From: Candidatus Melainabacteria bacterium
GTDB lineage: Bacteria; Cyanobacteriota; Vampirovibrionia; Obscuribacterales; JAKAZS01
Reading direction: 5' to 3'
NCBI GenBank assembly: GCA_027371815.1
Contig: DAHXLC010000216.1
Span: 1-34,013 of the forward strand
Length of the DNA stretch: 34,013 nt
Below the pieces are notes generated by a model. The model was not told the DNA's origin. It saw only the letters and a list, made by a program, of their open reading frames with translations, and did no database searches. This document shows, in pieces, positions 3,758 to 25,852 of the stretch. Numbering within the stretch: position 1 is the first letter of the stretch; each line of letters begins with the position of its first letter. The translations under genes and the position numbers were made by a program.

Positions 3758-5890
3758 TTAAACTTTATATCCAGCTAATTTTTTTAAAAATATAAGAATT
3801 GTAAAAAAACCAGCTTCATAAAATAATAACATAAATATTAATATGCCTAAAATGGTTGGCCATTGGATTAAATCAAGCCAATTACTTAAGAAATCAAATT
3901 CAATTAAATGAGCCCCAGGGTTTAAAAAACAAGCCATCATATAACCATTAGCCTTAAATAAGGGACTGTCAATACTATCAATTTTAACTTTCCAATGATT
4001 AGCATAACTTTGATTAAAAATTAAAAAACAAGGATTAATACAATCGGTTGACAAAGCAATATGACCTGGTTGCAAAGTCAAAGTAACAACTTTTGCCTTA
4101 ACTGGTTTGGCTTTAGCAAAAAAATTAGGCTGGTTAGCATTGGTTTTAAAATTGGCTAAATAACTATATAAATCAGGCTGAGTATTTTCGTTAGTTAATA
4201 ACTGACGCACCCGATTAATTTGTTGATACTTATTAAGATAATCAATTTCGGGTATGCTGATAATATCGTTAACGTCATTAGAAAAAAAATCCTTAACAAT
4301 AAATTGATTATTAATAAATTTAATCTGATTACTTAAATAACTCATTGGCTTTAATTCTAATGGTAAAACATACTTTTGACCCAAGGACGAGAAATTAGCT
4401 AATCTAAAGGGTTTATCAAAATTACGCTCAGTATTATAAATATATTTTGAATTAGTTAAATAGCAAAAGCGCTTTAATTTATTGATATTAATGCTTATAT
4501 TATTATTTAAAAAAGTCAAATTCGGATCAAAACATTCTTCAAATAGTTTATGGAGAAATGGCTGCCCAATACCCCAATAACTTATAGTTACGGGATTTAA
4601 ATTATGCAAATTAGTAAATGCGATATTATCATGATCAATACAAGCCAAATTAGCTTGATCTTTCATGCCGACAAATAAGGTTCGCTCTGTATATAAATTT
4701 TCTGGTAATAAACTAGGTACAGCATTATGATTAATTGCTGGAAATTTAAAATTTAAACATAAATTGGGAAATAATACTGGCAATAACACCAGGCTCAAAT
4801 AAATAAGCTTATTTTTATTTATTTTAAATTGAGGATAAATTAATATATAAGTAAATAAAATACCTAACTGAATTAAATAAGCTTTAACTGTAAAAGTATG
4901 AATCAAGGCAGTGTTAAAACATAATCCTAAAGTATTATAACCAAATAAAAATATTACGGTAGCTAAAGCATATTTATTAGCATGAGTATTCTGCTTATGG
5001 GTAAGACTGGTAAATCCTAAACCTATGACCAAAGACACTGGCATCAAACCAAGAATATAAAAGAAATTCAAATTATGCCTATTAGCTATATAGCTTAAAT
5101 AACTTAAACTATGGATATTATATAAATTATAAAACAGATCATTTAATAGGCCTAAAATAAAAAACAAAACTATTAAGCTAAGACAATGACGAAGATATTT
5201 AAAATTCTTGGTAAAACAACCTAAAATAAAAATGAACACGCAAATAGGATTATATTGAATAAAAATTTTTATATTATTTAAAGTCCCAATTACTGGTAAT
5301 ATAAAATCATTGGTTTGAAATAAACTACTTATTTGAAAGTTAAATTGAATTACCCTCAATAATCTTTCAAATAAGTAAATATATGATGGATAAGCAATTA
5401 AAGCTCCGGCCATAATTGACAGCCAATAATAAATTAGTTCTTTTTTTTGGGGCTTATAATATGGATTTGGTATTAAAATAATTCCCAAAATTAAAACCCT
5501 AAATTGTAAGGGTAAACCACAAAACATTCCCAGAGCAATTGTTAGAGAAATCAAACAAAACACCCAATATTTATGACCATTACCTTGATTTAAACGAATT
5601 TTTAAAATTCCCATTACAACTAACCAGACAAAACTTTCAAGAGAATTTAAACTAGCTAAATTAACTATCGGATAAAAAGTTATGGTTAAAATTGAAGCTG
5701 ATAATATTGCCCTATTTACAGAAGTCAGCAATAATTTATAGAAATAGGTACTTGCTAAAAAAATCAAAATCAAATGAATGCATCGTAAGATTCTTAGTGC
5801 CATTTCAGAATTCATAAAACACGTCAAATAGTTAGGCAGATAAAATATGCCCGATCCAGGAATAGCCAATTCATTGATTCCACAGGCCAC
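3758..5890 (-). CDS. YfhO-like GT-C membrane protein (main ORF; true N-terminus probably upstream)
   Basis: The 710-residue multi-span membrane protein has about ten hydrophobic helices in the first 400 residues. A soluble region follows, and a final helix sits near the C-terminus (WPTILGILIFMLLFYEAGFF). The segment before that helix, SYANHWKVKIDS ... LNPGAHLIEFDF, matches the end of YfhO-type proteins, which are GT-C fold relatives involved in polymer glycosylation. The ORF-track start (GTG, 5890) falls inside a conserved extracytoplasmic motif: the same frame upstream reads QYVYNCIIHNLVPAWNPY. The real start is therefore almost certainly further upstream, beyond a homopolymer (next feature). 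The gene sits directly after nuoN. The donor and acceptor sugars cannot be told from sequence. Confidence 0.8.
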   Translation of the reverse strand: MACGINELAIPGSGIFYLPNYLTCFMNSEMALRILRCIHLILIFLASTYFYKLLLTSVNRAILSASILTITFYPIVNLASLNSLESFVWLVVMGILKIRLNQGNGHKYWVFCLISLTIALGMFCGLPLQFRVLILGIILIPNPYYKPQKKELIYYWLSIMAGALIAYPSYIYLFERLLRVIQFNFQISSLFQTNDFILPVIGTLNNIKIFIQYNPICVFIFILGCFTKNFKYLRHCLSLIVLFFILGLLNDLFYNLYNIHSLSYLSYIANRHNLNFFYILGLMPVSLVIGLGFTSLTHKQNTHANKYALATVIFLFGYNTLGLCFNTALIHTFTVKAYLIQLGILFTYILIYPQFKINKNKLIYLSLVLLPVLFPNLCLNFKFPAINHNAVPSLLPENLYTERTLFVGMKDQANLACIDHDNIAFTNLHNLNPVTISYWGIGQPFLHKLFEECFDPNLTFLNNNISININKLKRFCYLTNSKYIYNTERNFDKPFRLANFSSLGQKYVLPLELKPMSYLSNQIKFINNQFIVKDFFSNDVNDIISIPEIDYLNKYQQINRVRQLLTNENTQPDLYSYLANFKTNANQPNFFAKAKPVKAKVVTLTLQPGHIALSTDCINPCFLIFNQSYANHWKVKIDSIDSPLFKANGYMMACFLNPGAHLIEFDFLSNWLDLIQWPTILGILIFMLLFYEAGFFTILIFLKKLAGYKV

Positions 5891-9696: not shown

Positions 9697-10630
9697 AATT
9701 TATAATGATTTTTATATTTCTCCCGTATCATGGGGTTTAGGTGATTTAGTTGTCTGTTTACCTATTATCCAAGAATTAATTAGTCGCCAAATTCCTACTT
9801 ATGGAATTTATAGTAACGCCCTACAAAAAGAAGCTTACGACAGTGTCATAGGTTTAAATGGAAGTATTTTACTTAATGATATAAACAAAATTGAAAGACC
9901 AGCACAAATTATCAATTTAAGAAATCATGATTTACAAAAAAATTACTGGTGGGGTGGAACATTATTTAAGCAAAACTATCCCAATTATCATATAAATGAC
10001 ATTCTAAAAATAATCTGTAATGATTTTAATTTACCCTTTGCTGAACATAAATTAGTTAAATTAAATCATCAAAAATTACCCCAGTATGAAAATACGCTAA
10101 TTTTTATTGCTAATAGTTTTGGCCCTTTTAAATCATGGCCAACTGAATTTTGGCTGGAAATACATCGTTTTTTAACCAAACATAATTATAACGTTATTTT
10201 ACTAGGTCGAATTAATGAATCCCAGCAATTAACTGACCTCATTAATTTAGGTGTTAAACATATTGATACGCCGCAATTATCGTCAGCAATTAATATTTTA
10301 TCTTCAGCTAAAGCCGTCCTAGCCATTGACTCTGGCTTAGCCCATATCAGTGTTAATCAAGGTACGCCAACCATAATTATGTATGGCCATAATGATGTAT
10401 ATTACCGCCCCTATCCTCATTCTTACAATATTTCAGCAAATCATTGTAGTATTTTATGTAATGAACAATATGATAAATTTTCTAATACAAGTCCAGATAA
10501 AAATTTTGCAACATTTCCACCCTGGGATTGTAAGGCGGAAATGCCACTTAAATGTATGGCTACAATTATGCCTCAAAGTGTTATTAACAAGCTGTCCATG
10601 ATCTTAAAGCTTAACAATGCTAAAGTATAA
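9680..10630 (+). CDS. Glycosyltransferase family 9 (heptosyltransferase-like)
   Basis: The 316-residue GT-B fold enzyme of the ADP-heptose:LPS heptosyltransferase type lacks a signal peptide. The N-terminal WGLGDLVVCLPIIQELI corresponds to the GDxxxxxPxxxxL acceptor-side loop. The middle reads NSFGPFKSWPTEFWLEI, matching the family K-x-WP-x-x-x-[WF] motif. The C-terminal donor site is VLAIDSGLAHISVNQGTPTIIMYG, matching the D-[ST]-G-x-x-H motif. It suggests transfer of a sugar to a surface glycan or lipid A core, but the exact sugar is unknown. It overlaps both neighbours (17 nt upstream, 14 nt downstream). Confidence 0.85.
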   Translation: MAEKYKIYNDFYISPVSWGLGDLVVCLPIIQELISRQIPTYGIYSNALQKEAYDSVIGLNGSILLNDINKIERPAQIINLRNHDLQKNYWWGGTLFKQNYPNYHINDILKIICNDFNLPFAEHKLVKLNHQKLPQYENTLIFIANSFGPFKSWPTEFWLEIHRFLTKHNYNVILLGRINESQQLTDLINLGVKHIDTPQLSSAINILSSAKAVLAIDSGLAHISVNQGTPTIIMYGHNDVYYRPYPHSYNISANHCSILCNEQYDKFSNTSPDKNFATFPPWDCKAEMPLKCMATIMPQSVINKLSMILKLNNAKV

Positions 10631-11741
10631 TCTTTACATTACTGATACCAATTATTGCAGCCATCTTGTTAATAGCCAAGCTGAAGGAATATTATGTCTA
10701 ACCAGCTATAAGGATAATCTTATAATCAATAATTTAGGCAAAAATATTGAATTAAGTAAATTAAACATTAACAACCATCAGTGCAAACTAAAAAAAAATG
10801 CAATCTATGATTTTTCATTTTTCTCATCGCTTGACGAAGAGTCACAATTTGACATGGATATGCATGCCTTATTAATTAAGAATAACTATCTATTTGCTTT
10901 AAATCATTATGGTATTATCCGCATATTCAATCTAAAGCAAAATTTACAACCTGAATATTTATTAAGATTTGCTAGTGATACTGAACACACTAGCATTATT
11001 AACAGACAATTACTTACTTCATCATCAAGCATTTATGGTATTAGCGATAGTCCCACAACTGGATTAATAGTATCCAATCCATTAATTACACAAACCTATA
11101 TTGAAAAAGATTTTATGAATTTAAACGAAATGGTTGCCAATATTTATCAACTAGACTATTTCACAATCTTAAATAACCTTGGTAAAATTAATATTATTGC
11201 TAACAATCCTCAACTTAATCTTTTAGCCTTAGCTAATGATACTACTTTCTTGGTCTATGCATATAATGAAAAGCCTTTTTTTAAGCTTGAGAATTTGGTA
11301 TGTTCATTCAAAATTAATTATTTAGTTAAAAACATTTGTTTTATCGATAACCATCTACTGATATCGGGATATGAAAGTAAGCAATCAGAAAAAAGTTATG
11401 ATGATATTTTTAAATATAATCAGGAATTAACTTCCCATATTCAACTATACAGCTTAACTGGCGAAAACATTTGGTCAAGGTGTGAAAATTCTACAATCGC
11501 TTGGGGATTTGGCGGCAAACCCATAACTTATGATCAAAAAAAACAAGTAATTTATTTGGTTTTACGTAATTCAACGTTAAAAATGCTTGATTTTCGCAAT
11601 GGTCAAGTTCTCGATTTAAATTCACCAGCAACCCTAACTGAACAAAATTTTGGTACGGCTAATTTAAATTTGCATCAAAATCATTTAATCTGTACCTTTA
11701 ATCGCGCCAATTACCGATTATTTCACTATAATTTTGACTAA
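10617..11741 (+). CDS. Unknown protein, possibly beta-propeller-like
   Basis: I do not recognise this 374-residue protein. It has no signal peptide or membrane helix. It consists of repeated short beta-strand patterns: ALLIKNNYLFALNHYGIIRIFNL, ICFIDNHLLISGYES, HIQLYSLTGENIW, VIYLVLRNSTLKMLDFRNGQVL and HLICTFNRANYRLF. Each runs as a strand, a turn, and a strand ending in aromatic or aliphatic residues. That periodicity is what degenerate WD40/PQQ-type propellers look like. The ATG at 10617 overlaps the glycosyltransferase stop by 14 nt, so it is co-translated with it and may act in the same surface-glycan process. The fold is an inference. Confidence 0.6.
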   Translation: MLKYNLYITDTNYCSHLVNSQAEGILCLTSYKDNLIINNLGKNIELSKLNINNHQCKLKKNAIYDFSFFSSLDEESQFDMDMHALLIKNNYLFALNHYGIIRIFNLKQNLQPEYLLRFASDTEHTSIINRQLLTSSSSIYGISDSPTTGLIVSNPLITQTYIEKDFMNLNEMVANIYQLDYFTILNNLGKINIIANNPQLNLLALANDTTFLVYAYNEKPFFKLENLVCSFKINYLVKNICFIDNHLLISGYESKQSEKSYDDIFKYNQELTSHIQLYSLTGENIWSRCENSTIAWGFGGKPITYDQKKQVIYLVLRNSTLKMLDFRNGQVLDLNSPATLTEQNFGTANLNLHQNHLICTFNRANYRLFHYNFD

Positions 11742-11949: not shown

Positions 11950-14900
11950 TTAACTTCCAGAATTGTTACCGGTAGTATTTGCTCCGCCACTATTGCCACT
12001 AGTATCAGTTGCAGCTGAAGACGGGGCTGGTGGCGTTTCATTTTTTATTGGTGTTTGACTTTGATCCAATAATTCTTGATATGGAGCTGCCGCAGCCGAA
12101 ACATTACTGCCTTGCTGAATTTGGAAACCATGCGTTAATGCTGACCAATAAGTTGGGGCAATAAAGGCTGATAAAGGAGTGCCAGCTTCACCAGCAACAT
12201 TCAAATGACTTATACCAGATTTAAGTGCATCAACTGGATGCGTTATCGCTGATTTTAAGGTATTTTTTAAAGATGGCGTACCCACGTCACTGGTTATATT
12301 TTTAGCAATGGCACCAGATTCTAAAAATGGTGCAATCATGGCAGCTTGGAAGAATATATTACCCATTAATTCACCCGATAAACTACCCGAATTTCTGCCA
12401 GACCAAGTAATATTTAAAAATTCCTGGCCTAGCGTATAAGGTTTACCGGTAGCAGGATTAATTTCACCTTTAAAAACATTATCATAAATGCCAGTAGGAT
12501 AGGCATAAGCTGATAATGAAGTTAAAGCGGTACCATAACCAGATAAGAAACGTCGATATTTTAAGGCATCAGCTGACGTTGTTTCAAAATCCATGGTACT
12601 AAATGGATTAATATTATGCGCTAAATTGCCAATTGATTTTGCAGTGTCCAGAGGATGAAGACCAGCATTAATTATTTTACCTGGCATAGCTTTAATTTTG
12701 CTAAACATACCGGCTACAGATTCTTTAGTCGTAGCATTTAAGGCAGTGTTTATATCGCTGATTTTGGTGCTGGGAGAAATACCACTAGTTATTTTTTGTT
12801 CAAATTCCTGAAAATTCGAAGATTTTTGTAAGTCTTCAACCGTATAAATATCATATTTACTAGCTAGATTTTTGGCAACATCGAGAGGAAAATTTGGTAT
12901 ATTTTTAAGTAATGCGGCTTTAGCTGTAGCTTCATCAGCAAATTCAGGACTAGTAGCAATAGTATCTAATTGTTTTACCCTACCCAATAACTGACCTGTT
13001 GTATATCCGGGTTCACCAATTGTAGCATTTAAAGCATCAATTTCACTTAATTGCCCAACAGTTACTTTACTGGCATCAATACCAGCAATTGCTTTAATTT
13101 CTTGGGCACTTCTTAAACCTTGCAATTTATTAAAATCAGTAATTGATTTTTCAGCAAGATTTTCACTGCCACTAACAGTAGTGGCTGCTGATTTAGGCAT
13201 GGCATCCAATGTATCTTTTAACATAGTAGCTCGAGCCGCTGCTGATTGAGGTAAAGCCTTGCCAATATCGGCAATTTTGGTATCAGCACTAATTCCAGCT
13301 AAATTACCATCAGCTAAGCTACCAAATTGATCCAACACCTTTTGGGCGTCACCAGCAGTGGTAATTCCTTTATTAGCTAAACTAGCAGCCAGTTTAGAGT
13401 CCACACCAGCTAATGAACCTATCGACGCTGAAGCATCAACTCCACTGGTAGCTGATTTTAAAACGCCTAAATGGTCTGTTAATTCACCAGCGGTTTTAGC
13501 GCCAGTCATTGCCCCACCACGAGCAATATTAGCAATATCTAAGGTCGAAGCTGAATTGTCAACGCCTTTAATAGCTATAGCACTAATTTTTTGGCCATCA
13601 AGAATTTTATTTAAATCGCCTAAATTATCTACGCCACTATTGCCGACTCTTTCTAAAAGAGCTGCTGCATCAGTGTTTGGACCTTTGAATAATAATTTAC
13701 CAAAAGTATCTTTGCCAAAATAAATAGCACCCATACCAGCTAAAGCGGCTGAGCCATGTAAGGCAGCGTCAGCTACACTTTCTTTCGATCCGCTAATATG
13801 GTTAAAGACCTCGTAGTCTGTACCTATAGCTCCAGCTAAGCCCGCTCCAACACTTAAGGCGCCTTTGCCAAGCATTAGACCTGTTTTACCAATATCAGCG
13901 CCACCAGCAACAGCTTCTTCGGCTATTTCTGGATTACGTAATAAAGCTGCAACACCTATGGCTAATCCCATACCAACAATACCGGCAGATGTATCAGCTA
14001 TAGCATGATTCCAGAATCCCGATAAATTTTCATATTTTTTCTTTAATTCTGCAGGCATATTATCAATGGTTAAAGTTGCCAATTGAGATAATAAAGGATC
14101 TTTACTGGGATCTTTATCTAAATCAATACCATAGGTAGATTTTTCAAGAGCTTTAGCTTGATTAATCAAGTCCATAGCTTGTTGAGGTTGAAATACGTCA
14201 GCCAAATCATTTTTTCCGGTCTTAGCATTGATAAGACTGCCTAAGTAAAATTGCACCAAAATTTTTCTTAAAGTTATCGGCGCATTAATATCACCAGAAT
14301 TTAAATCAGTTCCTTGAAGTTCAGTTTGGAATTTTTTTAAGCCAGCTTGATCTTGAATAAAATCAGGATTTTTAATTGCATCATTCAATAAAGAAACTTC
14401 TTCTTTCATTTGGACTATCGGTAATTTATCACTTAAATTAATGGCTTCTTGATAAACGCTAGCAGCTTTCTTATATTGTTTGTCCTGAGCTAAGGCTGCA
14501 GCATAACCTTCCATTAATTGAATGGGTTGCATGACACTGGTGAAATCAGCCTTAAGCATGGTATGAGCCGTTAATATTTCAGCTGAAGTTAAGGGTTTGC
14601 CATTTAACTGACCTGATTTTAAAATTCCTTCAATTTCATCAATTTGTTTGGTTAAAGCAACAGGATCATTTAATTTTTGGGATTCAGCAATAGCTTTTTC
14701 AAAAAATGGTTCACTAGCAATAATTCCAGATTTTTTTAATGCAGCAAGACCTTCATTAACATTTTTTTGAATTTCTTTTGGATCAACACTACCGCTTCCA
14801 GCATCAGTCCCTGGTGATTGGGGAGCCCCTGGCTGGTGAACTGTTCCAGCGGACGCAGTATCAGTTCCTGGAGCTATTGGAGCTCCTGGCTGGTGAGCTG

Positions 14901-17208
14901 TAGTCCCACCGTTACCCGTATCTGTAACTGGATGTGCTTTAGCATAGGCAGTTATATCAGCTTCGCTAATTTTCAATTTACTTGCTAAAGCCGAAACTTC
15001 TGGAGATTTTTCAAGCGCTGGCCAGATTTTGGGATCTACAACACTGAATGCCTGTAACAATTCATTTTTAGCTAGATTATCCTGGCTGGCTTCATCTAAG
15101 GCTTTAGCATATTCTAAACGTGCGTAAAACTTAGCTAATTCAGCTTCACCTTTAGCGGTATCATTTTTCTTAACTTCTGCAGTAATAGCTAATAATGGGT
15201 TTAATTTATCAGCATAAGCTTGCATATCCTTAAATAACTGGGGGTTACTTTTTTCCAAACCAGCTCGAGCAGCAGCTTTTTGGGCTGCAGTAGCTTTTGG
15301 GTCATTTAAAACGTTATATTCTTGTTGTTCAGCTGGAGTCAAGGCTTTAATATCATTATCCACAGCCGTTTTTAATGTATTCAACTCATTTTTATAAGCT
15401 GGAGTCAAATAAGGTTGAGCCTTTTGCTCAAGCTTAGCATCATCTGCAGTGACTTGCTGATTTATCGTATTAAATTCACTATCAGCTAAGGCAATAGCCT
15501 TTTCATATTCTGGTGCATATTGTTTAATAGCGGTCTGTTTATCAGTAGCTTTATTAAATCCAGCATCAGCTTGATCTAAAATACTTGAAGCCGTAGCTCC
15601 GGTATCAGCGCCGGCTTGTGGCGGTGTGGCGGCTCCAGCTGGTGGCGTATCAGCGCCTGGGGCTTGCGGTGCCCCTGGTGGTGTATCAGCGCCGGCTTGT
15701 GGCGGTGTGGCGGCTCCGGCTGGTGGCGTATCAGCACCTGGGGCTTGCGGTGCAGCTGGTGGCGTATCAGCGCCTGGGGCTTGTGACGGTGTATTTTGAA
15801 TTTCATTAGCCGGAACACCTGCATTAATAGCATCTTGACGTAATGTTTGAGCTAAGGCCGGATCGATATTTTTTTGGATAGCTGTCAGGAAATATTTTTG
15901 GGCTTGGGCTTTATCACCAGATTGCATAAGCGCATTAGCATATTCAAAACAGGTTAAAGCTGGTGCATTCTTTTCTTCACTTATTTGTAATCTAGTTTTG
16001 TTTAATTCAAATAAATTAGAGTCTAGTGGTTCAGTAATTTTATTTCGATTGGCTAAAATAGGTTGAAGCGCTGGAGCGATTTTAACCATTTCACTTTCAA
16101 CTGTATTTTGCGCATTTAAAGATGGCGCCTGAGCAAGATTTTTATATAAATCAGCTAATTCAACCTGAACATTTTGAGGATATTTGGAAGCCACCATTTG
16201 TACCTGAGCATCAATTTGACCTAAAGCACTAGCCATAGCTGGCGTTATTTGTGCATGAAGTTTACCCTTTAACACATTTTCTTGATTTAATAATTCAGGT
16301 AATATTGGTGAAGATCCCGATGTACTTTCCTGAATTGCCTTTAAAAACTCTTGATTTATGGCAGGCGTTAATTTTCCTGATTGCTGAACTTCACTTAAAG
16401 CCTGTTGAGCCTGTTCCAGTGGGCTTAAGGCATTAGCCGTACCTGAACCACCAGTAGATCCAGGTGAACCAGTTTGCCTGTCACCACCATTACCATTATT
16501 GCCACGATCTAAGCCAGCAGAACCAGCTTGGCCATTATTACCACGATCTAAGCCAGCAGTTGGAGTTTGGGCGCCATCATTACCATTAGCAAAATAAGGA
16601 TAGCCTTGAGGCACTTTTTGACCATCACTGTTCAATGCCTGTTGATATTCTCGTTGAAAATTAACATCATTAAGCATCTGGGGATTCATTTGTGATGCTT
16701 CCATTAGTAAGGTAGTAGATTTACCAGTGTGTCCTAATTTAAGCATGGCTAGCCCTAAATTAGCGCGAGTAAAGCTAGGAGCTTGCTGTAAATAAGTAAG
16801 ATCCATGTCTTCTTTAGCTAAAGCTAAAGCTTGTGGTGAATTAGGATCCTTTTGAATTTGAGCTTCAATATTACTTTTATACTTAGCAATAGCATTTTCA
16901 TCTAATCCGTCTGCAATTTTTATGGCTTGGACATAATATTGATAGGCTTCTTTCATGCCTAAACCTTTATTGACACTTTCGGCCATATTCAAATTAATAA
17001 ACAGTGCATTAAACTGATTAGCTAAATTTGGATCCTGTAAAGGACTAGCATCAAACCCTTCTGCTTTAGCATTGGCCAACATAATATTATCAGCGTGAGC
17101 TGATAAATTTGGCGTCATGCCATAAACTTCACGGTTTAAACTATTGTTTCGTGAGTTATTAGCGCCATTCAGGTTAGATTCTGGATTGTTATTAATTTCT
17201 CTTCCCAT
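11950..17208 (-). CDS. Giant modular repeat protein (1752 aa), function unknown
   Basis: The ATG at 17208 has AGGA about 8 nt upstream. There is no N-terminal signal. Residues 1-200 and 260-470 are helical with TPR-like spacing (AYQYYVQAIKIADG, ALMQSGDKAQAQKYFLTAI). Linkers are low complexity: GLDRGNNG copies near 220-245, a Pro/Ala/Gly tandem block at about 473-536, and HQPGAP copies at about 770-800. Residues 545-1060 are alpha-helical with further TPR-like pairs. Hydrophobic glycine-rich segments follow at about 1069-1166 (GIVGMGLAIGVAALL). Residues 1170-1490 contain recurring 60-100-residue units of the form A-x-x-L-x-x-x-G-I-x-T-x-x-D/E, resembling helix-hairpin-helix repeats (SKLAASLANKGITTAGDAQK). 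A further hydrophobic part is near 1540-1660, and a Ser/Thr/Asn tail ends the protein. No enzymatic motif is seen. A large scaffold at the membrane or cell surface is one guess. Confidence 0.8.
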   Translation of the reverse strand: MGREINNNPESNLNGANNSRNNSLNREVYGMTPNLSAHADNIMLANAKAEGFDASPLQDPNLANQFNALFINLNMAESVNKGLGMKEAYQYYVQAIKIADGLDENAIAKYKSNIEAQIQKDPNSPQALALAKEDMDLTYLQQAPSFTRANLGLAMLKLGHTGKSTTLLMEASQMNPQMLNDVNFQREYQQALNSDGQKVPQGYPYFANGNDGAQTPTAGLDRGNNGQAGSAGLDRGNNGNGGDRQTGSPGSTGGSGTANALSPLEQAQQALSEVQQSGKLTPAINQEFLKAIQESTSGSSPILPELLNQENVLKGKLHAQITPAMASALGQIDAQVQMVASKYPQNVQVELADLYKNLAQAPSLNAQNTVESEMVKIAPALQPILANRNKITEPLDSNLFELNKTRLQISEEKNAPALTCFEYANALMQSGDKAQAQKYFLTAIQKNIDPALAQTLRQDAINAGVPANEIQNTPSQAPGADTPPAAPQAPGADTPPAGAATPPQAGADTPPGAPQAPGADTPPAGAATPPQAGADTGATASSILDQADAGFNKATDKQTAIKQYAPEYEKAIALADSEFNTINQQVTADDAKLEQKAQPYLTPAYKNELNTLKTAVDNDIKALTPAEQQEYNVLNDPKATAAQKAAARAGLEKSNPQLFKDMQAYADKLNPLLAITAEVKKNDTAKGEAELAKFYARLEYAKALDEASQDNLAKNELLQAFSVVDPKIWPALEKSPEVSALASKLKISEADITAYAKAHPVTDTGNGGTTAHQPGAPIAPGTDTASAGTVHQPGAPQSPGTDAGSGSVDPKEIQKNVNEGLAALKKSGIIASEPFFEKAIAESQKLNDPVALTKQIDEIEGILKSGQLNGKPLTSAEILTAHTMLKADFTSVMQPIQLMEGYAAALAQDKQYKKAASVYQEAINLSDKLPIVQMKEEVSLLNDAIKNPDFIQDQAGLKKFQTELQGTDLNSGDINAPITLRKILVQFYLGSLINAKTGKNDLADVFQPQQAMDLINQAKALEKSTYGIDLDKDPSKDPLLSQLATLTIDNMPAELKKKYENLSGFWNHAIADTSAGIVGMGLAIGVAALLRNPEIAEEAVAGGADIGKTGLMLGKGALSVGAGLAGAIGTDYEVFNHISGSKESVADAALHGSAALAGMGAIYFGKDTFGKLLFKGPNTDAAALLERVGNSGVDNLGDLNKILDGQKISAIAIKGVDNSASTLDIANIARGGAMTGAKTAGELTDHLGVLKSATSGVDASASIGSLAGVDSKLAASLANKGITTAGDAQKVLDQFGSLADGNLAGISADTKIADIGKALPQSAAARATMLKDTLDAMPKSAATTVSGSENLAEKSITDFNKLQGLRSAQEIKAIAGIDASKVTVGQLSEIDALNATIGEPGYTTGQLLGRVKQLDTIATSPEFADEATAKAALLKNIPNFPLDVAKNLASKYDIYTVEDLQKSSNFQEFEQKITSGISPSTKISDINTALNATTKESVAGMFSKIKAMPGKIINAGLHPLDTAKSIGNLAHNINPFSTMDFETTSADALKYRRFLSGYGTALTSLSAYAYPTGIYDNVFKGEINPATGKPYTLGQEFLNITWSGRNSGSLSGELMGNIFFQAAMIAPFLESGAIAKNITSDVGTPSLKNTLKSAITHPVDALKSGISHLNVAGEAGTPLSAFIAPTYWSALTHGFQIQQGSNVSAAAAPYQELLDQSQTPIKNETPPAPSSAATDTSGNSGGANTTGNNSGS
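15602..15784. repeat. 81-bp tandem repeat coding for a Pro/Ala/Gly linker
   Basis: Two full copies of an 81-bp unit (15602-15682 and 15683-15763), plus a partial copy, encode a 27-residue repeat built from QAPGADTPPAGAATPP-like text. The copies differ at about five bases. The DNA is GC-rich (for example GGCGGTGTGGCGGCTCC), in sharp contrast to the AT-rich surroundings. Repeat number could vary between strains, and assemblies may collapse it. Confidence 0.9.
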
Positions 17209-17276
17209 GATTCTTGTCCTTATTTATAGTAGTTGTTAATTTTTGTGCTTTGTCACCTATTTAAATATATACAATA

Positions 17277-17365: not shown

Positions 17366-17400
17366 AAAAAAATGAGATTTAATTTTAATCTCATTTTTTT
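17366..17400 (-). terminator. Rho-independent terminator of the desaturase gene
   Basis: On the minus strand AAAAAAATGAGATT pairs with AATCTCATTTTTTT across a 7-nt loop, starting about 27 nt after the desaturase stop codon. The 7-bp TGAGATT/AATCTCA core is followed by a run of seven T. The flanking A and T runs make it symmetric. Confidence 0.85.
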
Positions 17401-19296: not shown

Positions 19297-19722
19297 CTAA
19301 TAATTAGCTGCCTGTCGAGTAGCCAAACGCATTCTTTTAATACCAGCCATACGTGCAGCTGTCATTATTTCCATTACTGCATTACTTTTACAATCACCAT
19401 CGGCATTTAAAGTAACTGGTAAATCTTCATTATGGGCTTTTTTCTGGAGTTTAACTATATATTTATTAATTTCATCAGGGGTTGCATTAATTAAATATTT
19501 GCCATTAACAGCAATTTTGCCTTCTTTATCAATATCGATGGTTATACCTTTGGTTTCATTAACTTTTTTAGCATTTAAGGTTTTAGGTGGTTTTATTTTC
19601 AAATCAGACTTATCAATTAACGGGGCAATTAATATCATGATAACCAATAATACTAAAAACACATCAGTTAATGGAGTGACATTTATATCACCAAATTCTT
19701 CAAGGCTAGCCCCCATTGACAT
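19297..19722 (-). CDS. exbD: ExbD/TolR family energy-transducing protein
   Basis: The 141-residue inner-membrane protein has one N-terminal transmembrane helix: NVTPLTDVFLVLLVIMILIA. The Asp in PLTDVFLVLLVIMI is the proton-coupling residue conserved in ExbD, TolR and MotB. A periplasmic domain of about 95 residues follows, with the usual ITIDIDKEGKIAVNG and LNADGDCKSNAVMEIM. It works with ExbB to harness the proton motive force for TonB. A GGGAG Shine-Dalgarno lies 9 nt before the ATG. The 29-nt gap to exbB and the 5-nt gap to aroE support one operon. ExbD and TolR cannot be told apart by sequence alone; the TonB-like partner favours ExbD. Confidence 0.93.
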   Translation of the reverse strand: MSMGASLEEFGDINVTPLTDVFLVLLVIMILIAPLIDKSDLKIKPPKTLNAKKVNETKGITIDIDKEGKIAVNGKYLINATPDEINKYIVKLQKKAHNEDLPVTLNADGDCKSNAVMEIMTAARMAGIKRMRLATRQAANY

Positions 19723-19751: not shown

Positions 19752-20393
19752 TTAATGAACTTTAGATGGTTCATCAGAAGCGACAAAACTTAAAAATAAC
19801 AATTTTAATAAAGCAAAATCATCATTATAGCCTTTAACAATATTAGTATAGGTATTATTAAAAATAACAGCTAAAATTGCTACGATTAAACCATATCCTG
19901 TAGCGATAAGCGCTTTGGCCACACCTAAAACAACAATCGGAGTTCCGCCACCGCTAGCTCCTAACTGATTCAAGGTAAAAATAACCCCAACTACTGTACC
20001 AAATAAGCCTAAAAATGGGCAGGTGGCTCCAATAGTTCCTAAAATCGGTAAATGTTTTTCAAGTTTTCGGGTCACCAGGCCAACTGTAATATCAAAAGCT
20101 TTGGAAAAATCTTCTTTTTGTTCAGCTAAAAGTCTGACCCCTTCTTCGGCAACTTCACCAATAACTCCTCCAAGCCTGCTACAAGTAGCCTGAGCCTTTT
20201 GTAATTGACCACTTTCTAATTCACGTTGTAACTGATGAATAAAAGACGTAACATCTCTTCGGTTTTTTTGGTAGTAAAAATAACGTTCAAAAATAAAAGC
20301 AACAGTTAAAACTGAACAGATTGTAATCGGAACTGAGGCAAACCAATCGTGAACCATGAATTCCATAAAATAAGTAAAAAATATGCTTTCCAT
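19752..20393 (-). CDS. exbB: ExbB/TolQ/MotA family proton channel
   Basis: The 213-residue protein has three transmembrane helices: one near residues 17-36, and two C-terminal ones in LGTIGATCPFLGLFGTVVGVIF and KALIATGYGLIVAILAVIF. The conserved motif GTVVGVIF and the Thr in the third helix are family hallmarks. It forms a pentameric channel around ExbD dimers. AGGAG lies about 15 nt before the annotated ATG, which is far; in-frame ATGs at codons 10 and 13 are even further, so the first ATG is kept. It is the second gene of the operon, 47 nt after the TonB-like gene. Confidence 0.93.
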   Translation of the reverse strand: MESIFFTYFMEFMVHDWFASVPITICSVLTVAFIFERYFYYQKNRRDVTSFIHQLQRELESGQLQKAQATCSRLGGVIGEVAEEGVRLLAEQKEDFSKAFDITVGLVTRKLEKHLPILGTIGATCPFLGLFGTVVGVIFTLNQLGASGGGTPIVVLGVAKALIATGYGLIVAILAVIFNNTYTNIVKGYNDDFALLKLLFLSFVASDEPSKVH

Positions 20394-20439: not shown

Positions 20440-22026
20440 TTAAAAACGACGGAACATTCCTCGGCCGCCACCACCACCACCGCCACCAAAGACGTTATAG
20501 TCAAAGGTAAATTGAATATCTACACTGTCAGCAGAACCAGTTGGTAAAGTTCGAAACGGTGCCGAGTTTTGCACTGCTTGAATGGCTGCTTGATCAGCCA
20601 TTTTAAGACCTGAAGACTTCTCTAAACGTAAATTAGATAATTCTCCATTACGATGAACGGTAAAGATTACCACAACGCGTTTCGATTCTTCGCCTCGGGG
20701 TGGGAACCAATTGCGGCGTATGCGGCGTTGTAAATCTTTCATGTAAGGTCCAAAATCCGGTTCGGCTTCAGATTTAAGTGACGATGGGCCTGGTTTGCCA
20801 TCAGCATCAGGATTACCTTTTAGACCTTCGCCACCACCGCCATTAGAACTACCACCACGAGCTAAAGATGGTGTTACTAAAGCTGGTCCAGAACTACCAC
20901 CAGAACTGCCACCACCACGAGAAGCACGAATCGGAGCAATTGGAGGTCCACCACCAGAGCTAGTTGCTCCACCACCTTTAGTTCTGGAACCACCAACAGC
21001 TACAGGAACTGGTGTTGGCGATGAATCACTTCCCGTTGAAGAGCTGGCAATTGCATTTAAAGATGGGGCAAGACTGGGTGCTAAACTAGGTGCCTGACTA
21101 CTGATTTTAGGAGCTGGCGAAATAGTAGGCGTACCAATATGAGGCATTTTTATTGGTGTAGGTACAGCTTGAGGGGATGGTGATGGTGATGGGGATGGTG
21201 AGGGGGATGGCGATGGTCTTGGACTTGGCTTAGTTGGCGTCAACATACTTGGCCGCGGTGCAGCTTGGGGCGTTGGTACTGGTGTTGGCATTGGATGCGG
21301 AGTGGGATGAGGGGTTGGTTTTTCCGATTCATGAGCAGGAGCTGGGGTTGGCTTCTTTTCAGCTGCTGGTTTTTCCGCTGCTTGCTTAGGCGCTGGTGAA
21401 GCTGGACTTACGGGCTTAGTCGGATCATGCTTACCATGATTTTCACTGGCATGGGTCGCTTTACGTTGAGAAACAATTTTCTTACGAGTTGGCGTTTGAT
21501 CAGGAATAAATTCGATATCAGTTATCTGAATTTTGGGCAATGGTGGTAAAAAGAAGAAAAAGGCTAAGATAAAACAGGTAAATAAAGCACAAAAATGTAA
21601 AATATATGAACCACTAGTAGCTTCAGAAAAATCAATAACAAATTCAGGATACAAATTACGTTTAGAATGAAAACTAGCTTTATCATAAGCATCACGCATT
21701 GCTAAACCGATAAAAACAATCACAAAAGTCAAAAATATATATGATATGGGTGAGCCCAGACGCGCCTGAGATAAAGAATCAACCAAACCTTGATTGGGTT
21801 TCATATGATATTGTAAGCCCAAGCTTTGTAAAGAGCCTAAAATTTGGGAAGTGAATACTAAAAGAGAAAAACCAACTATATTAATAATATCAACCCACAA
21901 AAACAGTAGAGCTTTACGTTTTTCACCAAGATATAACTGACCAAGACCTGGAATAATGGACAAAAACATTGCCATTGTAGGATCCTTGGTATTTGAGTTT
22001 AATTTATTATATGTAGAGGTTGTCAT
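20440..22026 (-). CDS. TonB-like protein with multi-span TM2-like N-terminus
   Basis: The 528-residue protein has several membrane helices before the TonB part. Residues 17-60 (FLSIIPGLGQLYLGEKRKAL) look like a TM2-type hairpin (PGxGQxY). Another helix is near 92-110, and the last one, LHFCALFTCFILAFFFFLPPLP near 145-166, could act as the TonB anchor that contacts ExbB/ExbD. A long Pro/Lys/Ser then Gly/Ser region spans about 180-410 (PSPSPS, LAPSLAPSL, GGGSSGGSSG). The C-terminal TonB/TolA domain shows LQRRIRRNWFPP, VVVIFTVHRNGELSNLRL and AAIQAVQNSAPFRTLP. It ends with a poly-Gly tail, GGGGGGGGRGMFRRF. It opens the operon and has no strong Shine-Dalgarno. Ordinary TonB has one helix, so this architecture is unusual. 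Confidence 0.88.
   Translation of the reverse strand: MTTSTYNKLNSNTKDPTMAMFLSIIPGLGQLYLGEKRKALLFLWVDIINIVGFSLLVFTSQILGSLQSLGLQYHMKPNQGLVDSLSQARLGSPISYIFLTFVIVFIGLAMRDAYDKASFHSKRNLYPEFVIDFSEATSGSYILHFCALFTCFILAFFFFLPPLPKIQITDIEFIPDQTPTRKKIVSQRKATHASENHGKHDPTKPVSPASPAPKQAAEKPAAEKKPTPAPAHESEKPTPHPTPHPMPTPVPTPQAAPRPSMLTPTKPSPRPSPSPSPSPSPSPSPQAVPTPIKMPHIGTPTISPAPKISSQAPSLAPSLAPSLNAIASSSTGSDSSPTPVPVAVGGSRTKGGGATSSGGGPPIAPIRASRGGGSSGGSSGPALVTPSLARGGSSNGGGGEGLKGNPDADGKPGPSSLKSEAEPDFGPYMKDLQRRIRRNWFPPRGEESKRVVVIFTVHRNGELSNLRLEKSSGLKMADQAAIQAVQNSAPFRTLPTGSADSVDIQFTFDYNVFGGGGGGGGRGMFRRF
21173..21217. repeat. 6-bp simple repeat coding for Pro-Ser
   Basis: Imperfect GGTGATGGTGATGG-type hexamers encode a PSPSPSPSPS stretch in the TonB-like proline-rich linker. 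Length may be slippage-prone, always in frame if whole hexamers change. Confidence 0.8.
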
Positions 22027-23632: not shown

Positions 23633-25852
23633 TTGTTAAACAACGAATCACCAATTACTAATCAGTCTCAAGATAAGCAGAAATGTTTAGCTTGTGGAAT
23701 TGAATTTATTGGCATTACGAATTGTCCCATTGATGGCTCGAAACTTGTTGCGGTTAGTCCTGATGAATTCCTGGGCAAAGTTATTGAAGGCAAATATGAA
23801 GTTGTGGCAAAACTGGGTACAGGCGGAATGTCCGTAGTTTACAAAGCCAGACAAATTCTCATGGATCGAATCGTGGCCATTAAATTTCTGGTTAATCAAG
23901 ATTCAGAATCGCTACGGCGTTTTCAGCTAGAAGCCAAATTAGCTTCTAGCCTATCGCATCCAAATATAATTACCATTTTCGACTTTGGTATTGCTAGCGA
24001 ACAAGGCAAGCCTTTTATTGTGATGGATTATCTAAAAGGAATTAGTCTAAGTGAAATTATAAAATCTAAGCAATATCTTAATGAAGAAGAAGCCGTGCCA
24101 ATTTTTCTCAAAATAATTGATGCCTTGGCTTATGCCCATGAAAACTCAATTCTGCACCGCGACCTAAAACCAGCTAATATTATGATTTGTGATTATAACC
24201 AAGAGGCCAAGCCTGATCAACAACTTTCTACAAGACAATTAACCGGAGCTTCGGTAGTTTTAGACGGTAAAGCCTATCTTGTAAAATTAGTAGATTTTGG
24301 CATTGCTAAACTTATTACGGAAACCGATCAAGAAGAATATAAATTAACTAAAACTGGTGAAGTTTTTGGTTCACCTATTTATATGAGCCCCGAACAATTT
24401 TTAGGTGAAAAATTAGATAACCGCAGTGATATTTATTCTTTTGGCGTTGTAATGTATGAAAGCTTAACTGGTGCTTTGCCCTTGCTTGGCAAAAATCTTA
24501 TGGACACATTAAACCGTAGGTTAAGTGAAAAACCTGAATCATTTGCGCAAATTGATCCGGAATTAAAAGTAAGTCCATATCTCGAAGATATTGTTATAAA
24601 GTGCCTCGAAAAAAATATTAATTTACGCTTCCAGTCCATGCGTGATTTACAATTGATGTTGGAAAAATTTCATACCCACAAAGTCAATGATGTTAATTTA
24701 ATAACTCAAAAAATCACTCATGCTCAATTTAAAAAACCACCTTTAACTCACCAAGCTATTAATCTAAGTAATAAGTTACTTTTAGCCAGTTCAATAAGCA
24801 TAATTTTAGTTTTAGGCATAATTCTGTTTGTTTACTTCTCATTAAATAAAACTCCTAAGCTAGCGCTTAAACCTAATAATGAACTACCAATACTGCTAAA
24901 TAAAAAAACTGCTACTCCTCTAACACTTTCTCAATTAGCCAAGGCTGATACTTTACTGGCAAACGGTAAAATTAAAGAAGCCTTAAATATTTTTGAAGAT
25001 GAATATTCAAATAATGCCTACGATCAAATTTCGCAAAACAAAATATTAACTAAATTAATCGAAGTTGCTAAAGCCTATCAAGTTATTGGAGATACCAAAG
25101 AAGCTATTAATATAAATAAACAAATTCTTACCAAGATGAATCTCAAATACGGCATGGTTAGTGCAGCTAGTCTTGACTGTTTATCAAGGCTAGCTGAATT
25201 ATATAAGTTAACCAAAGCAGATAGTGAAATGGACAAAATAAATAAAGAAATTAATATAATTAATATTGTAACCAATATAAATGAAGATTGTAATAAATTG
25301 TTTATTACAGCCCGATCAAATCTTAGTCATCACAACATTAATCAAGCTCAGCAAATAGCTAATGAAGCAATTATTAAACTAAAAAATGCTTTAACCTTAA
25401 TCAAACAAAATTTTTCTAAAGATGATTTAAGTCAAGCTGAAATTGAAAATAAAATTGGTCAGTTTTATTATCTTAAGGCTGGCGCTAAAGATGCCTTAAT
25501 CTGGCACAATAAAGCTCTAGCTATAAGCACCAAAATCTCAAGCTTAGAAGCCAAGCTAGAATCAGCCAAAGCTTTTATTGGTATTGGTACAAGTTATTTT
25601 GGTCTAAATGATTATCATAAAGCCAAATCAGCTTTTGAACAAGCGCTTAATTTAAGACAGGCAGTATTAGGCAGTCTGGATCCTGCTAATATTGAAATAT
25701 TATCATGTTTAAGCATTGTTGCCGAGAACGAACATAACCTTAATAAAGCCAAAAATTATTTAATTGAAGCCATAAATATCCAGACTCAATTTGATCCTAA
25801 GAATAATGAATTAATGGTCTTAAAACACCGTTTAAAAAAATTAAGCCATTAA
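23633..25852 (+). CDS. Membrane Ser/Thr protein kinase with Zn-ribbon and TPR domain
   Basis: The 739-residue protein starts with a short zinc-ribbon-like segment (CLACGIEFIGITNCPIDGSKL, about 19-39). The PknB-type kinase domain spans about 54-350. Its glycine loop is LGTGGMSVVYKA, the ATP lysine is in VAIKFL, and the catalytic loop is ILHRDLKPANIM. The DFGIAK motif follows a 20-odd residue insertion, then GSPIYMSPEQ. A single transmembrane helix, LLLASSISIILVLGIILFVYFSL, is at about 383-405. The C-terminal 330 residues outside the membrane are TPR-like (ALNIFEDEYSNNAY, YHKAKSAFEQALNLRQAVLG). The start is TTG with no clear Shine-Dalgarno. The C-terminal part probably senses or scaffolds on the far side of the membrane. 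Substrates are unknown. Confidence 0.92.
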   Translation: MLNNESPITNQSQDKQKCLACGIEFIGITNCPIDGSKLVAVSPDEFLGKVIEGKYEVVAKLGTGGMSVVYKARQILMDRIVAIKFLVNQDSESLRRFQLEAKLASSLSHPNIITIFDFGIASEQGKPFIVMDYLKGISLSEIIKSKQYLNEEEAVPIFLKIIDALAYAHENSILHRDLKPANIMICDYNQEAKPDQQLSTRQLTGASVVLDGKAYLVKLVDFGIAKLITETDQEEYKLTKTGEVFGSPIYMSPEQFLGEKLDNRSDIYSFGVVMYESLTGALPLLGKNLMDTLNRRLSEKPESFAQIDPELKVSPYLEDIVIKCLEKNINLRFQSMRDLQLMLEKFHTHKVNDVNLITQKITHAQFKKPPLTHQAINLSNKLLLASSISIILVLGIILFVYFSLNKTPKLALKPNNELPILLNKKTATPLTLSQLAKADTLLANGKIKEALNIFEDEYSNNAYDQISQNKILTKLIEVAKAYQVIGDTKEAININKQILTKMNLKYGMVSAASLDCLSRLAELYKLTKADSEMDKINKEINIINIVTNINEDCNKLFITARSNLSHHNINQAQQIANEAIIKLKNALTLIKQNFSKDDLSQAEIENKIGQFYYLKAGAKDALIWHNKALAISTKISSLEAKLESAKAFIGIGTSYFGLNDYHKAKSAFEQALNLRQAVLGSLDPANIEILSCLSIVAENEHNLNKAKNYLIEAINIQTQFDPKNNELMVLKHRLKKLSH

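Follow-up and report, generated by a model that had tools for sequence, protein, structure and literature searches.

The window analysed here, 34,013 nucleotides of a contig from a Candidatus Melainabacteria bacterium of the order Obscuribacterales, carries on its minus strand an open reading frame of 1752 amino acids running from position 17208 to 11950. The frame starts with ATG at 17208-17206 and ends with a stop codon at 11950-11952, and AAGGA at 17217-17221, read directly on the same strand, is a plausible ribosome-binding site. An AT-rich hairpin with a T run, also read directly at about 17366-17400, separates the giant gene from the upstream desaturase gene, and the giant gene may therefore have its own transcript. 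Compared with the 92-94% identical gene of a same-genus genome, which is split across two contig ends in its assembly, dN/dS was 0.14 over the whole gene; it lay at 0.06-0.16 for the folded modules, rising to 0.26-0.45 for linkers and tail. A second same-genus genome contained a full-length giant gene (1814 aa, 58% identical). The giant gene is real and under purifying selection, and its linkers are fast-evolving. A sequence-only reading of the window had described a modular giant of 1752 residues without giving the strand; the description was borne out, and the strand is minus. No signal peptide was apparent in the giant or its relatives, all with polar N-termini, as that reading had also stated.

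Pfam found TPR only and no enzyme family in the 1752-aa protein, in agreement with the earlier remark that it has no enzymatic motif. NCBIfam, PHROGs, PADLOC and PDB sequence searches gave no family match for the giant. SecDF and dynein-like PDB hits (E at least 0.13) were rejected as unrelated, and ubiquitin hits were rejected as an artefact of multi-domain summing, each stretch having an i-E of about 1000. With both AlphaFold2 models, Foldseek returned generic alpha-helical proteins only and nothing at E ≤ 0.001. No description of such a protein was found in the open-access library. The architecture had been said to match nothing that could be named, and no full-length hit to a characterised family arose in the databases searched.

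Helical modules and linkers

The N-terminal 1062 residues consist of four helical modules of TPR type with fast-evolving linkers between them; all features described below lie on the minus strand. Module M1 (residues 40-205, 16594-17091) is TPR-like, with a conserved motif at about residues 137-185 in the alignment of relatives. It is followed by linker 1 (residues 206-257, 16438-16593), which is rich in Gly, Asn and Asp and fast-evolving by dN/dS. M2 (residues 258-472, 15793-16437) was delimited as a TPR-like module by Pfam and by profile comparison. Linker 2 (residues 473-539, 15592-15792) is rich in Ala, Pro and Gly and contains an 81-nt tandem repeat at 15602-15792. M3 (residues 540-765, 14914-15591) is a helical module homologous to M2 in profile-profile and iterated HMM searches, linker 3 (residues 766-814, 14767-14913) is rich in Gly, Pro and Thr by sequence and was likewise examined by dN/dS, and M4 (residues 815-1062, 14023-14766) is a TPR-like helical module in the AlphaFold2 model and the alignment of relatives.

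The TPR-like regions proposed earlier were confirmed by TPR_2, which scored 28.3 bits against a Pfam cut-off of 27 over the whole protein, with the best stretch at residues 418-447 in M2. Other Pfam TPR models, and searches with single modules alone, stayed below threshold; weaker Pfam TPR matches fell in M1, M2 and M4. In the AlphaFold2 model M4 is helical; its block pLDDT is mostly 84-96, with one lower loop and a fall after residue 1054 or so. The two AlphaFold models were built from 24 and 3 sequences and much of both is of low confidence. Foldseek matches of the M4 model to TPR, 14-3-3 and designed repeat proteins all had E values of at least 0.04.

The profile-profile comparison of M2 with M3 gave a probability of 96.8% and an E value of 2e-10. 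Position-restricted profiles matched M1 with M2 (E 2e-4) and M1 with M4 (E 1.5e-3), and M2 and M4 did not match in the profile-profile comparison. Iterated HMMs joined all four modules, possibly by drift over generic TPR helices. M1 to M4 may be four copies of one module; this is only partly shown, because the M1-M2 and M1-M4 matches are weaker and M2-M4 gave no score. The giant resembles TPR alpha-solenoid scaffold proteins in its degenerate TPR units and in the helical repeat modelled for M4. It differs from them in its modules, which measure 165-250 aa and have other helices between their TPR units, in its Gly-rich weakly hydrophobic region and HhH-like block, and in its length of 1752 aa with no family model covering it.

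The three Pro/Gly-rich linkers with internal repeats noted from the sequence correspond to linkers 1 to 3, the 81-nt repeat being that of linker 2. The same reading found the GC-rich repeat DNA unlike its surroundings, and this holds for linker 2, with 69% GC against 33% for the window. The high GC of linker 2 is due to its Ala/Pro/Gly content, since GC3 is just 0.37 there (0.22 over the giant gene). An origin from foreign DNA was rejected, as GC rises only at Ala/Pro/Gly codons and GC3 stays low.

The glycine-rich region, the duplicated block and the C-terminal domain

Residues 1063-1190 (13639-14022), designated TM1, form weakly hydrophobic Gly/Ala-rich helices in the alignment, the Kyte-Doolittle profile and the model, and are a possible membrane-contact region. 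The glycine-rich hydrophobic centre recognised earlier was found at about residues 1063-1165. It contains the single Kyte-Doolittle peak of the giant, 1.65 at residues 1072-1090, against 2.2-3.0 for the clear membrane proteins of the window. TM1 was among the best-conserved parts of the giant in the alignment of relatives and by dN/dS, and its helices were modelled with modest confidence. Net charge was negative in every module of the giant.

Residues 1191-1520 (12649-13638), designated VR, comprise a duplicated helical block of about 165 aa, identified by self-alignment and in the model. The self-alignment of residues 1190-1525 scored 88, compared with a maximum of 72 in 100 shuffles. VR was alignable along its full length only within its own genus. 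Recurring G-I-x-T helical units had been reported from the sequence, and they proved to lie in this duplication, one per copy. The motif occurred 4 times against 0.57 expected (p 0.004), for a pattern that was written after the sequence had been seen. The first unit (residues 1265-1300, 13309-13416) surrounds GITTAGD and was recognised as a recurring unit with sub-threshold matches to HHH_5 and NusA; the second (residues 1435-1470, 12799-12906) surrounds DIYTVEDL and was recognised by self-alignment and motif. Similar units (GVKTVGDL, GISTVGDI, GINTVGDV, GVSTLGDL and others) occupy the corresponding region in relatives from several other genera.

The description of these units as HhH-like repeats is supported as a resemblance below threshold. 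Their likeness recurs across relatives, and the pattern L-x-G-V/I-x-x-K-x-A-x-x-L-x-x-x-G-I-x-T-x-x-D in VR is that of the HhH units of NusA acidic repeats, RpoA-CTD and Pol IV (HHH_5 and its relatives), which gave the main recurrent PDB profile matches of VR. All of the matches were sub-threshold: 13.3 bits against a cut-off of 27 for Pfam HHH_5 (E 0.12), 15.8 bits against 27 for IMS_HHH_1 in relatives (E 0.02), about 12 bits against 27.3 for RAD51D_N in relatives (E 0.20 and 0.25), and E 0.14-1.2 for NusA, Pol IV and RpoA chains with various relatives. The model of the first VR copy (pLDDT 66-91) shows short helices in pairs, and no HhH structure was recognised among the Foldseek hits of the VR model. 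Because the profile matches were all sub-threshold and Foldseek gave no HhH structure, 'HhH-like' denotes a supported likeness and not family membership. Unlike the known HhH units, the VR unit belongs to a giant protein, where it sits inside a 165-aa block present twice, and Foldseek gave no confirmation of a HhH fold for it.

The conserved C-terminal domain (residues 1521-1705, 12094-12648) shows a (D/N)P-x-TGK motif in the alignment, together with helices rich in glycine, and its dN/dS was 0.06. The protein ends in a Pro/Ser/Gly/Asn-rich tail (residues 1706-1752, 11953-12093), which is probably disordered, as judged from sequence and dN/dS.

An order-confined family and its partner protein

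The giant is a member of an undescribed giant-protein family that is confined to its order in the genomes sampled. The M1 profile matched 42 of 53 genomes of Obscuribacterales and none outside the order among 232 genomes of the class (about 190 other than those of the order). With a profile of M4 plus the Gly-rich region, 28 of 240 genomes of the class gave matches, every one belonging to the order; among 292 genomes sampled across the phylum, the window's genome was the sole match. These searches used six-frame profiles on a sample with many incomplete genomes and may have overlooked weakly conserved relatives. An open frame of 8066 aa in another genome (G015:C168, match at about 16231-16569) matched M1 weakly and is possibly an even larger relative. 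PF00124, the family of photosystem reaction-centre proteins, was detected in 47 of 117 sampled phylum genomes and in neither the window's genome nor the listed genomes of the class, which is therefore taken to be non-photosynthetic.

A second protein of 830-1160 aa with a TPR-like module adjoins the giant in 15 genomes from 10 genera. In one genome (G003) the two are fused in a single 3142-aa frame (L066:661-10086, minus strand). Using the partner profile, we also found the partner in both same-genus genomes and in the window's genome, where it lies on another contig (G000:C292, 932-942 aa); giant and partner genes are not adjacent in the window's genus. A single partner sequence used as query gave no match in the window's genus, but the partner alignment did. 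As indicated by adjacency, fusion and co-occurrence, giant and partner are linked; of this two-protein system the giant is the larger component. A TPR-type module is common to both (E 1.8e-5); homology of their C-terminal domains was rejected because the comparison gave no support. The Gly/Ala-rich hydrophobic segments of the partner reach Kyte-Doolittle values of 1.85-2.36, against 1.65 in the giant. Neither protein was found in genera g4, g17 and g18, nor in g5 except for one marginal partner match; the system may be dispensable there or too diverged. A role as an anti-phage defence component was rejected, since PADLOC gave no match for the giant or for the partner.

The gene directly next to mutS2 (identified by TIGR01069) encodes the partner or a family member, often along with paralogues, in 20 genomes from 15 genera. 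Typically, carB is followed by an HtrA-like protease, gamma carbonic anhydrase and mutS2, and then by one or two giants, a partner and a family-2-like glycosyltransferase. As these neighbours are functionally mixed, the locus suggests vertical inheritance more than a pathway shared with MutS2. Of the two families of the order, only one has the giant next to mutS2. The sequence-only account had missed this family and its spread through the order, as well as the locus beside mutS2 and the partner. A protein similar to HtrA-like proteases was seen near mutS2 in both families (L090:1688-2536 and L031:2480-3526), the resemblance of the former being judged by eye. A conserved protein of about 120 aa (MMPVYDQPMRKLLGVLSPTISWLNEKG...) with no NCBIfam match also lies beside mutS2 at L031:4256-4615 and in similar places.

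In the window's genus the giant follows genes for fatty-acid desaturase, aroE and exbD/exbB/tonB. A position at the mutS2 locus was rejected for this genus, in which mutS2 lies elsewhere. The TonB-family protein of the window (20440-22026, minus strand, 528 aa) has a Pro/Ser/Gly-rich linker and a (GATGGT)n tract at 21173-21217; ExbB-like and ExbD-like genes are beside it at 19752-20393 and 19297-19722.

Possible function of the giant and its partner

We favour, tentatively and at a little under an even chance, a two-protein, non-enzymatic, cytoplasmic alpha-solenoid scaffold or tether that touches the inner membrane, belonging to a family inherited vertically in one order. The giant would stay in the cytoplasm, its TPR modules binding partner proteins and its linkers acting as flexible spacers. 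Gly/Ala-rich helices of the giant and the partner would associate with one another at the surface of the inner membrane or within it, and the HhH-like block may provide a further protein- or DNA-binding surface. Together the two proteins would form a membrane-associated scaffold or tether and not an enzyme.

The membrane link of the giant is the weak point of this model: the protein is only borderline hydrophobic, and soluble bundles can likewise contain Gly/Ala-rich helices. A fully soluble cytoplasmic scaffold or filament, whose TPR modules and Gly/Ala helices bind each other and clients with no membrane contact, is unlikely but deserves serious weight. It would fit the net negative charge of every module, the absence of an apparent signal peptide and the fact that no segment of the giant reaches the clear membrane proteins of the window (1.65 against 2.2-3.0); conservation of the Gly-rich region among the best-conserved parts, and the segments of 1.85-2.36 in the linked partner, speak against it. 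The giant might instead be an ordinary TPR protein specific to its lineage, such as a chaperone-like co-factor, whose housekeeping role has nothing to do with the partner. These genomes contain many TPR proteins, and the window itself encodes a TPR kinase at 23633-25852, but this reading is quite improbable given that the giant is co-inherited with, adjacent to and in one case fused with a single partner family.

We give still less credence to a nucleoid-to-membrane tether, in which the HhH-like block would bind DNA and the membrane side would be formed by the Gly-rich region and the partner. The likeness to NusA, RpoA-CTD, Pol IV and Rad51-type domains and the adjacency to mutS2 in 20 genomes point in this direction. 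The HhH matches are however all sub-threshold, Foldseek found no HhH fold, and the net negative charge of the block (-4) does not favour DNA binding; NusA-type units can bind protein too. The gamma carbonic anhydrase and carB genes near mutS2 are functionally unrelated, so the adjacency may be mere inherited gene order. Least credible, and already disfavoured, is a protein like phage tail tape-measure proteins or an injected protein. The giant is long and helical with Gly/Ala-rich hydrophobic segments, as tape-measure proteins are, and many weak viral fold hits were minor-tail or tape-measure proteins. These hits had E values of at least 0.01 and TM-scores near 0.1, there was no PHROGs match, and no tail, lysis or injection genes lie nearby, the neighbours being cellular. 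Vertical inheritance of the family at a housekeeping locus and the TPR modules also set the giant apart from tape-measure proteins.

A large conserved non-enzymatic pair present in most genomes of the order, and nowhere else in our samples, is a good candidate for a lineage-defining cell structure, in a group that is known mainly through metagenomes. It is possible, though doubtful, that the pair builds a large alpha-solenoid structure associated with the membrane (a scaffold, a coat or a nucleoid tether), which the order's ancestor already had and to which photosynthetic cyanobacteria and other classes have nothing equivalent. With the order-wide mutS2 locus, the partner and the naturally fused frame, the pairing can be tested directly, and a domain map is now given for proteins outside every family library.

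Two further proteins of the window without a Pfam match were noted. One of 710 aa (3758-5890, minus strand) has about ten hydrophobic segments. The other, of 374 aa (10617-11741, plus strand), has no hydrophobic segment and also adjoins the giant in a same-genus genome (L025:5817-6938).
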